The notes under the pieces were generated by a model. The model was not told the DNA's origin, did no database searches, and worked only from the letters and a program-made list of their open reading frames with translations. DNA of 64,000 nucleotides. Source: Protonemura montana (lineage: Eukaryota > Arthropoda > Insecta > Plecoptera > Nemouridae). The first letter of the stretch is position 1, and each line of letters starts with the position of its first letter. The position numbers and the translations under genes are program-made. Positions 25,851 to 29,105 of the stretch are shown here, piece after piece. The stretch covers positions 23,770,651-23,834,650 of the forward strand of contig OX387603.1 in NCBI GenBank assembly GCA_947568835.1. The letters are read 5' to 3'.

Positions 25851-28800
25851 ATGAGCTCGACTAGTGATTCTTCAGACACTGGTTTTTGTACCAATGGGAA
25901 TAAAAGAGGAATGCCATATGCTTTGAAGAAGCGCAGAAAGAAAATTAACATTTCCTTCCAAGAGCTTACATCGGATGAAAGTAAAAATCCTAAAGAGCAT
26001 TTAAACAAGTTAACATCTATAGTAAGTCTGCTTAGTTGTAACTTTACTAATTTTAAGTTAATATTTTAGTTTGTGTTCACAGTATAGCAGTAGAACACAG
26101 ATATATAATAATTTACTGGACTGCAATTTAATATATTTTTATTATTCTGTTCCTAGGTTCGAGAAACATATTTATCGTATTTAATAAAAATACTCTCCCT
26201 CAATTACAAATCTATAAGTACAAATAAAGCATCCTCGGGAAGAGTTTTTAGCGGCAAAGACATTAAGCAGTGTGCTATACAAATGGAACAAAATGCGTTA
26301 CAATCCAGTATTGTGGCTGAAGTGTATCGGAAAGCCATGCTGCAGATGGTTAGTTAAGACTGCATGGAATGTTATGCATAATTTTTTATACAGTTCCATA
26401 ACAAGAAGAATTTTTATTCTTATGTTATTGTCAGTTATTGGTTTGATTTCTAACAGTACAGAAAAGAAACAAGAACACCCAAGCATACATGACTTTGCTG
26501 ATTCAAAAATCGTTCTTATCAACCAGTTTTAATGTCAGTAGCTGCCTTGCTCAGTAAAAAAGGGACTGGTGTTGTTCATCAATTCCACGGGCCTAAATTA
26601 TGTAATTACGGAGATTGATTGTGGTAAAGAAGGAAAGAGAGAGACACTGCAACTTACTGGAGAAGAAAATTGGCATTGCATGGTGCACTTATTAGGGAAT
26701 TTCCAGAATTTTCGATAATGCATTTCGGCGACAAGTTTTTTAAAAAGTGCATCAGGCAACGCCAATTTTCCCCTCGTGTAAGTTCCGCTCTCTCGCTCTT
26801 TTTTTCTGTCGTGAAGTTTTTATCATAAGTCATGTGTCATTGTTATTTAGGTAATTTAGTAACTGACTCTTCCACCCTTGTGATATCAAGGTACTTTCTT
26901 AAAACTTCTCATATCTTATCTATCATAATTTTATCTAACTTCCTACATTGCAAAACCTCTGCACTACCCCTGCTATCTTCTCAAAACTCAAAGTTAATTT
27001 TAAAATTAAACAGAACTTGGGGGAGCAGACTAAGACGCAAATGGGGCTTACGTAAAGCAGTGGCTCTCTGTGCTAGCGTCTCAATTATAAATATAAAATT
27101 ATTTTGTGAAAATTTAATAACAGTGATTTTAAACAACTGCGACACCTGAAATATTATTTGGTAAGCAGAAGCTCCCCACTAGTATATCTTAAACAAATCG
27201 GAAAATTAAATTCACCTGTCTTCGCCTACTTTCTCTCTTTGAGGCCAGACAGTCGCTGGTGGCAGCAAAACAACGCTATTAAACTTTAGATTCAACAAAA
27301 CTCAGTGATACTTCATGGCATGGCATGTGCTCGGTAGATACTGTCTTCTCTAAACTGTTGACAATTGTCGGAACTTTAACATTTTTCTAGAGGGCTGATT
27401 TATAAGTCCAGAAGTATACTTCTAACTAATGGCACATTTTACTCACCCAAATTTAAAAGGAAAGAGAGAAAGAGTCCGCAACTGACCTGAGAAGAAAATT
27501 GGCGTCGCGTGATACCTTTGTCATTGTTAGAGATGTTATGATGTTAGAGTGGTTATGTTATTGTCAGAGTTGTTTTGAGAAGTATTTTTAACCAGGACAA
27601 AGGCAACACAATGAAAAGTTCAAAATTATCAAAAATTCTAGAAATGTCTCGAAAAGTGCACCATACAATGTCAATACTCTTCTCCGGTAAATTGAGCGCC
27701 CTCTCTTTTTCCTTCTTCATTACAGCAAATATCTAGCTTCTTGGAAACCTATTCGCATTCCTACTCAAATGTATTTTACCTAGGTTGCCGAAATACAACG
27801 AAACACTGAAAGGCAGAAATTGCACAGTAAACTTTGCGACTACTCTCAACTATTCGACGACAAGGGAACTCAAACGGAGAGTTTCTCACCTGAACTTTCT
27901 AAAAGTATGAATAAGGATGCTGCTTGCAATGATACACCAACAGCTACCTTTCCTTTATTTATTGTCAACAATAGCAATACACCTGATATCACTGATCGCA
28001 TCACCAGGTCTTGCATTCTACCCACCAAAGTAAACCGTCGGTCAAGACAAATGGAACAATCAGCAAACATCAATAGCAACAAACAAAAAACAATAGCTAT
28101 GGCCAGTAAGAAAGTTCTTATTGACGTAGACATTTCTAAAGGAAACAAAAGTCCAGTGGACTTGTATCAGCAGAAATACACTGATGATCACGGGGAAGAA
28201 TTGCTTTTTCACTCCTATTCTGAAAGTGACGAGTGTGCTGATTATGATGAAATTGTAAATGATATAGAATTGGTGCCTGTTATAGAAACCAAGTATTCTT
28301 TGCTGGAAGTTGCTAATAATGGACAGGTGAGACCTACACCTAAGCAGTCGTTAGATGAGCGGTTGGCAGCATTGAATTTTAATAGGTCTACCACATTTGC
28401 TCTTGGAGAGTTTTCACCTGAGAAGGCAAACGATGATGTTGACCATAGAGAACTACCAGTCCAAGAAGACAACATGACACCCCTAAAGTCACAAGAATCG
28501 CCAGGTCTTTCGACGCTAGATAAAAGGCTAGCAGAAATTCATGGAGAATGTGGAGAACACCCTTGTACGTCAAAGGAAGCCGGAAAAAAAGCAATGGATA
28601 AACCAAAGAAAAAATTGGTCTGGCGTTACGAGGAGATGCATTACACCAAAAAACTAAAATTGAAGCTCAAATCACTTAGTACTGTTAAGAGAATGAGGCT
28701 TGAAAGCCGCTTAAACGAGTTGTTTGTGGAGGAGAGCAAAGCAAGCAGGAAACTACGAGAAAGACCTTTAGTAGAAGATCCGCTTTTGGAATTCAAAGAC

Positions 28801-29105
28801 CGAATCAAGCCGTGGGTAGTGAAACATTTGATGCCATACTACAAAAGTGGCAAGATCGACTCACGAGATTTTTTCAAACACGTAGCAAGGCATATAACTG
28901 ACAGCTTGGTAGAGATTAACCATCATCCAGGTATGATTCTTTGTTCATAACTGATCTGAAATCTAAATCGCTAATGCTCAAGGGGTAACATGCAAATAGG
29001 CAGTTTACTAACGTTAAACAATGGTGATACTATTCAAGATGTTCTTTTTTTTTTTTAGATGAAGCAGATGTCATTGAAGGCATAAATTTGCTATTGAATG
29101 CCTAA
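25851..29105 (+). CDS. Helicase-less RECQL5-related protein with KIX-like and SRI domains
   Basis: I assemble four exons: 25851-26021, 26157-26348, 27784-28930 and 29059-29105, giving 518 residues. The longer frame to 25803 opens with GTG; ATG 25851 has a good context (ACCATGA). Residues 1-57 hold a basic KKRRKK stretch, a likely nuclear signal. Residues 58 to about 130 (VRETYLSYLIKIL, then DIKQCAIQMEQNAL, then AEVYRKAMLQMVAEI) match the KIX-like region of RECQL5 ([34 protein letters not shown]). The middle is polar and acidic, with two LD(E/K)RLA motifs near 312 and 367. Residues about 457-518 match the SRI domain (VVKHLMPYYKSGKIDSRDFF, then KHVARHIT). Exon 2 and the last intron correspond in position and phase to RECQL5 exon 11 and its last intron. 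No helicase motif is present. I infer a Pol II CTD-binding adaptor born by partial inverted duplication of RECQL5. The 1.4-kb intron holds two MITE-like elements. Confidence 0.8.
26628..26808. mobile_element. MITE-like inverted-repeat element, copy 1
   Basis: A left arm of about 60 bases (26628-26690) is the imperfect reverse complement of a right arm (26742-26808). Both carry GAAAATTGGC(A/G)TTGC and TG(G/A)TGCACTT in the arm and a GA-rich outer tract. It sits in intron 2 of the SRI-domain gene. No transposase is present, so it would be non-autonomous. Exact ends and target duplication are not resolved. Confidence 0.6.
27455..27717. mobile_element. MITE-like inverted-repeat element, copy 2
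   Basis: It has the same architecture and arm sequence as the element at 26628-26808: a GA-rich outer tract, then GAGAAGAAAATTGGCG on the left, and a right arm whose reverse complement reads GGAGAAGAGTATTGACATTG, then TATGGTGCACTT. It lies in the same intron, just upstream of exon 3, and its right end is about 70 bases from the splice acceptor at 27784. Confidence 0.55.

Follow-up and report, generated by a model that had tools for sequence, protein, structure and literature searches.

The window, by which we mean the whole 64,000-nucleotide stretch of DNA analysed here, contains two divergently oriented genes of Protonemura montana (Table 1). The first, which we refer to as the KIX+SRI gene, lies at 25851-29105 on the plus strand, and a frame and splice-site check gave four exons encoding 518 amino acids followed by a stop, with GT-AG borders at all three introns (135, 1435 and 128 bp). 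The second is a complete RECQL5 gene in our model, in which Pfam detects DEAD, Helicase_C, RecQ zinc-binding and SRI domains and comparison with human RECQL5 reveals the KIX; its exon limits were set by hand and one intron has a GC donor. The initial annotation had proposed a four-exon gene for a 518-residue protein, divergent from RECQL5. At the sequence level its coordinates, frame and splice sites proved correct, and the two genes are indeed inverted and head-to-head, with 396 bp from ATG to ATG presumed to serve as a promoter shared by the pair. The longest stop-to-stop stretch of the KIX+SRI gene spans 388 codons, about six of them beyond the exon-3 donor, whereas simulating the locus 500 times with a Markov-1 model, in three frames, gave at most 170.

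Intron 2 of the KIX+SRI gene holds a fold-back, MITE-like element (26611-27733) with 109-nt arms that are 74% complementary and a first 200 nt that fold with a z of -6.55; one arm has at least 45 matches in the genome, its own copy counted, after scoring 40 of 280 candidates. Within its central region the protein carries two similar motifs, SLDERLAALN (28348-28377) and TLDKRLAEIH (28513-28542), both on the plus strand, and the WDR82-motif literature gave no lead on these LD-x-RLA repeats. Elsewhere in the window lie a Toll-like receptor gene, a 5S rRNA gene and an array of membrane-transporter genes, FLVCR-like by eye, where MFS_1 was matched in two of the four open reading frames scanned, both times below cut-off. 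In the rest of the genome, COX1 was found with identical score on a 25.9-Mb contig (C4:5760925-5762262) and on the 15,885-bp mitochondrial contig (C34:3504-4841), and further partial copies occur on C4, C12, C16 and C3; the copies outside C34 are probably nuclear mitochondrial insertions. COX1 on C34 is open under genetic codes 4, 5 and 9, broken under code 2 and has eight TGA codons by the standard code, and a tRNA with anticodon TAA (by eye) is located between COX1 and COX2, an arrangement typical of Pancrustacea.

Table 1. Coordinates of the gene pair and of other features in the window
Feature	Position	Strand	Details
Toll-like receptor gene	4603-8979	-	GC-rich; one 1458-codon open frame; leucine-rich repeats and TIR domain
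Neighbouring RECQL5	19520..25454	-	model, 13 exons, 987 aa
RECQL5 exon 13	19520..19614	-	after phase-1 intron in Asp codon
RECQL5 exon 12	19714..20710	-	central region and SRI helices 1-2
RECQL5 exon 11	21429..21623	-	195 nt, phase 0/0; KIX
RECQL5 brake helix	21964..22026	-	residues 500-520; 6/6 pattern positions
Spacer between both start codons	25455..25850	.	396 bp ATG to ATG
KIX+SRI exon 1	25851..26021	+	residues 1-57; brake-helix pattern not found
Basic NLS-like stretch, KIX+SRI exon 1	25902-25943	+	residues 18-31; by eye
KIX+SRI exon 2	26157..26348	+	192 nt, phase 0/0; KIX, residues 58-121
KIX+SRI intron 2	26349..27783	+	holds inverted-repeat (MITE-like) element between 26611 and 27733
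KIX+SRI exon 3	27784..28930	+	KIX helix 3 end (residues 122-130), central region, SRI helices 1-2
SRI helices 1-2, KIX+SRI protein	28813-28929	+	residues 465-503, in exon 3
KIX+SRI exon 4	29059..29105	+	SRI end after phase-1 intron in Asp codon; stop
Residue matches, KIX+SRI protein = human RECQL5			E101=E584, V110=V593, R115=K598, L119=L602, R127=R610, R490=R943
Transporter gene array	30147-36236	+	similar multi-exon membrane-transporter genes
5S rRNA gene	63390-63510	-	Rfam 53 bits

Domains and introns in common with RECQL5

SRI was the only Pfam family above cut-off in the KIX+SRI protein, where it lies at the C-terminus (PF08236, E 2e-10, 41.3 bits against a cut-off of 23.5). Smith-Waterman alignment of this region with the SRI of the neighbouring RECQL5 gave a z of 13.3, and that of exon 2 with the neighbour's exon 11, which encodes the KIX, a z of 8.9; in both cases none of 2000 shuffles scored as high. 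Pfam KIX had no match at E<=1 in the KIX+SRI protein or in the C-terminal part of the neighbouring RECQL5. When the KIX of the KIX+SRI protein alone was compared with the PDB by phmmer, the human RECQL5 KIX (4bk0) came first at E 0.0041, the neighbour's own KIX giving a weaker match to human RECQL5 (E 0.045). The whole protein also retrieved human RECQL5 first (E 1.7e-5), KIX then SRI, through single stretches that are weak (i-Evalue 2.2 and 0.12, respectively). Two-sequence profiles, made of the KIX+SRI protein and the neighbouring RECQL5 and hence not independent of the neighbour, ranked human RECQL5 first for both KIX (E 1.3e-5) and SRI (E 3.3e-7), and a comparison of KIX with SRI profiles gave no match, as expected. 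The initial annotation had assigned both domains to the RECQL5 type and this assignment stands, for the KIX by sequence: the AlphaFold model of exon 2 from a two-row alignment is of low confidence (pLDDT 64.8, pTM 0.31), has two helices against the three of KIX and gives no support for a KIX fold.

The protein had also been described as lacking the helicase, in agreement with the absence of Pfam matches to the helicase core (DEAD, Helicase_C) and to the RecQ zinc-binding domain; SET and WW had no Pfam match at E<=1 either. A match to SLAM (Pfam, E 0.046) is below threshold and was taken as chance. We rejected a SETD2 origin of the SRI, which scored 61 against the SETD2-like SRI of this genome and 78 against RECQL5. 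Outside the two domains no likeness to RECQL5 was detected: scores as high were reached by 495 of 500 shuffles for the central 310 residues, by 266 of 500 for exon 1 and by 95 of 500 for the exon 1 tail compared with RECQL5 exon 10.

All three introns of the KIX+SRI gene have counterparts in the last three of RECQL5, which follow in the same order, sit at corresponding aligned sites and have identical phases (0, 0, 1); they lie at the start and the end of the KIX exon and in an Asp codon past SRI helix 2. Part of this had been noticed from the start, namely the correspondence of exon 2 (192 nt, 0/0) to RECQL5 exon 11 (195 nt, 0/0), both of which open with (V/T)RE-x-YL, and the phase-1 last intron in the aligned Asp codon; the intron before the KIX is a further one common to both genes. 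The SRI segments are free of gaps up to this Asp codon in the Smith-Waterman alignment, as had been stated, and MAFFT introduces gaps in the weakly similar stretches on either side. With uniform placement over 384 aligned nucleotides the coincidence of three introns by chance would be about 1e-7, to be read as an order of magnitude only since real intron sites are non-uniform. Three introns in common point to copied genomic DNA and not to a retrocopy, and by this match the KIX+SRI gene and RECQL5 are homologous at the DNA level.

A scan of the genome (258.5 Mb, 34 contigs) with PF08236 found four places, one in the KIX+SRI gene, one in RECQL5 and two exons belonging to a SETD2-like gene, whose SETD2 identity and WW-like sequence were assigned by eye. 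The whole KIX+SRI protein matched its own exons 1-3 in the genome and no other copy, and the RECQL5 KIX only RECQL5 exons 11 and 12; neither search found the other gene of the pair, and copies this diverged escape them. Two scans of viral contigs, a collection not expected to hold animal genes, found no relatives. Among the literature matches listed, mostly open-access, we noticed no helicase-free animal protein with KIX and SRI. Splice isoforms of the RECQL5 KIX are reportedly the topic of a 2021 paper.

Polymerase contacts and the brake helix

Human RECQL5 mutants that abrogate binding to RNA polymerase II (Pol II) include K598E in the KIX and R943A in the SRI (PMC12526125). The KIX+SRI protein has R115 and R490 at these positions, with the charge kept at both, and SRI helices 1-2 are present with the Arg of R943. 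Nine residues of the KIX region of RECQL5 touch RPB1, six of them in helix 3 (PMC12262184). Three of the six helix-3 contacts are identical in the KIX+SRI protein (V593, L602, R610), two are conservative (L596 to V113, K598 to R115) and one is changed (N595); for the neighbouring RECQL5 the counts are two, one and three. The other three contacts, located at KIX helix 1 or ahead of it, were compared in a register set by eye, in which the exon 1 tail, K53-L-T, may be aligned with human R544-L545-T546. There, human R544, K548 and H552 correspond to K53, I57 and T61 in the KIX+SRI protein, so that at most one of three is kept (K53), and to S, A and M in the neighbour; phmmer places helix 1 of the KIX+SRI protein seven residues away from this register.

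In RECQL5 the KIX is preceded by the brake helix (alpha-N), with which it forms the IRI module; this helix makes contacts through W504, F507, Y508, Q511, M512 and R515 (PMC12262184, PMC12440807). Deletion of this helix abolishes binding of human RECQL5 to unphosphorylated Pol II (PMC12440807), and neither the KIX alone nor the preceding helix alone binds Pol II (PMC7073763). When helix and KIX are disrupted, binding to hypophosphorylated Pol II is lost but not that to the hyperphosphorylated form (PMC7073763), and the SRI enhances the binding of phosphorylated Pol II (PMC12440807). For transcription in vitro the SRI alone had no effect, while brake helix and KIX alone slowed it moderately (PMC12440807). 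A six-position pattern of the brake helix reached 6/6 in the neighbouring RECQL5 at residue 508 only, with two more of 975 windows reaching 5. The full score is in part a matter of construction, the pattern having been built after viewing the neighbour's sequence with any large hydrophobic residue allowed. In the KIX+SRI protein the best score was 3/6 in exon 1 and 4/6 anywhere.

As a Pol II adaptor, the role put forward in the initial annotation, the KIX+SRI protein is plausible, but the accompanying statement that these modules act against elongation cannot be carried over directly, as the brake helix was not found. For the same reason a competitor tethered to the phosphorylated CTD fits better than a second brake. 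Such a protein would be nuclear, as the basic stretch in exon 1 suggests, and during elongation its SRI would dock on the Pol II CTD phosphorylated at Ser2/Ser5. The tethered KIX could then sample the RPB1 jaw, where the RECQL5 site is overlapped by TFIIS and by the zinc finger and C-terminal helix of UVSSA (PMC12440807, PMC7073763). This last step may not happen, because the human KIX needs the helix ahead of it to bind Pol II. No block of downstream DNA is expected of a protein without brake helix and helicase, and by competing with RECQL5, and in the case of the CTD also with SETD2, it would relieve rather than add braking.

Alternatively the KIX could have left the RPB1 jaw, the protein serving as an SRI-borne adaptor that brings another partner to the phosphorylated CTD. 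We hold this to be rather unlikely. It would account for the undetected brake helix, for a central region of 310 residues unlike RECQL5 and for the changed N595 position (K548 and H552 too in the by-eye helix-1 register), and the lack of Pol II binding by human KIX alone (PMC7073763) is in its favour; yet five of the six helix-3 jaw contacts are identical or conservative, while the neighbour, which does bear a helicase, has three such contacts.

Age and direction of the duplication

The KIX+SRI gene had been explained as a duplicate of the 3' half of RECQL5, and the three introns in common fit the copying of this end; a local or recent origin fares less well, the pair being about as distant from each other as each is from human RECQL5. 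Over 95 ungapped columns, taken from short, hand-picked blocks and including 23 helix-1 columns that were aligned by eye on the (R)LT...RE motif, the KIX+SRI protein and the neighbouring RECQL5 each share 36 identities with human RECQL5 and 31 with one another. Among 20000 bootstraps the KIX+SRI-neighbour pair ranked strictly first in 3.8%, and in 9.9% when scored by BLOSUM62. Without helix 1 (72 columns) the identities are 27 (KIX+SRI-human), 28 (neighbour-human) and 23 (KIX+SRI-neighbour) and the bootstrap fraction is 3.9% of 10000 (6.6% by BLOSUM62), so the age result does not depend on the helix-1 columns. As human RECQL5 is at least as near to either protein as the two are to each other, their split seems to date back roughly to that between Protonemura montana and vertebrates, and we do not favour a recent duplication.

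A local inverted duplication that happened fairly recently in this lineage, after which at least one copy diverged quickly, would nevertheless explain why the two genes have stayed next to each other in head-to-head orientation. The loop between KIX helices 1 and 2, which in the by-eye register is 8-9 residues longer in both copies than in human, also points against an old split; in phmmer's register the loop of the KIX+SRI protein is about one residue longer. Against a recent event stand the low bootstrap fractions above, from short sets, and the best blastn match between the two loci, which has an E of 0.2, and we give this scenario a minor share of our confidence. More doubtful still is an origin in which the stand-alone gene is the older one and a copy of it, once fused to RECQL5, became the C-terminus of that protein. 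The about equal distances among the three proteins would fit and the introns in common are compatible with either direction, but RECQL5 is fused in both human and Protonemura montana, so that the fusion would be at least that old, and in the by-eye alignment an 'LT' before the KIX is common to all three across the intron. An untranscribed relic or wrongly joined gene model, which the long intron 2 with its repeat element might suggest, is highly improbable given 388 open codons, intact splice sites, functional residues conserved despite deep divergence and a full-length phmmer search that finds both domains in order.

Proposed role and known systems

Taken together the sequences lead us to favour, by a little, an intact gene for a helicase-free RECQL5 paralogue that arose by an old DNA-level copy and would act as a CTD-docked competitor relieving braking. 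The copied segment would have comprised the end of RECQL5, that is the KIX exon, the large central exon and the last SRI exon, with RECQL5 as the probable source; it would have been inverted and provided with a new or rebuilt start exon, under a promoter now common to both genes. With both Pol II-binding modules of RECQL5 and no helicase, the KIX+SRI protein may be a separate transcription regulator. One may speculate further, at long reach, that it belongs to an old, overlooked family dating from near the arthropod-vertebrate split, of phospho-CTD-tethered RECQL5 antagonists that act at the RPB1 jaw, free braked Pol II and are co-expressed with RECQL5 via a bidirectional promoter. A natural KIX+SRI protein without helicase and brake helix would be a ready-made separation-of-function construct that could reveal what both Pol II-binding modules do by themselves, and it bears on the question of whether a protein devoted to counteracting transcriptional braking evolved in animals.

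Several known systems invite comparison with the KIX+SRI protein. TFIIS and UVSSA, which overlap the RECQL5 jaw site, differ in that neither is among the PDB matches of the whole protein or of its KIX. PHRF1 carries an SRI together with PHD and RING domains. The SRI of SCAF1 binds the Ser2/Ser5-phosphorylated CTD (PMC11338954). Both SCAF1 and PHRF1 have other domains elsewhere, and KIX is unmentioned for either in the parts of the literature consulted. In plants, a KIX of the RECQL5 group is already known outside RecQ proteins: the group holding RECQL5 (Group-IV) also includes WPP and uncharacterized proteins, among them a 124-aa soybean WPP protein (PMC10565003). The term 'SRI' is absent from the main text of that study, whose proteins are set apart by description, and in the portions of the literature seen we noticed no description of KIX with SRI in the absence of a helicase. 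SETD2/Set2 has the SRI domain in common with the KIX+SRI protein, and elsewhere in this genome a SETD2-like gene carries both SRI and WW-like sequence; the KIX+SRI protein differs in having no SET or WW match and an SRI that by eye is without the SETD2 loop insert. From RECQL5 itself it differs by the absence of a helicase or RecQ zinc-binding match and of the brake-helix pattern, by an unrelated central region and by its length of 518 residues, compared with 987 in the neighbour model and 991 in human. Further features of RECQL5 are a RAD51-binding BRC-like motif and a PIP box. With RECQL5 it shares the KIX and the SRI in the same order, the charge at K598 and R943 and, with the neighbouring gene, three introns in place and phase.
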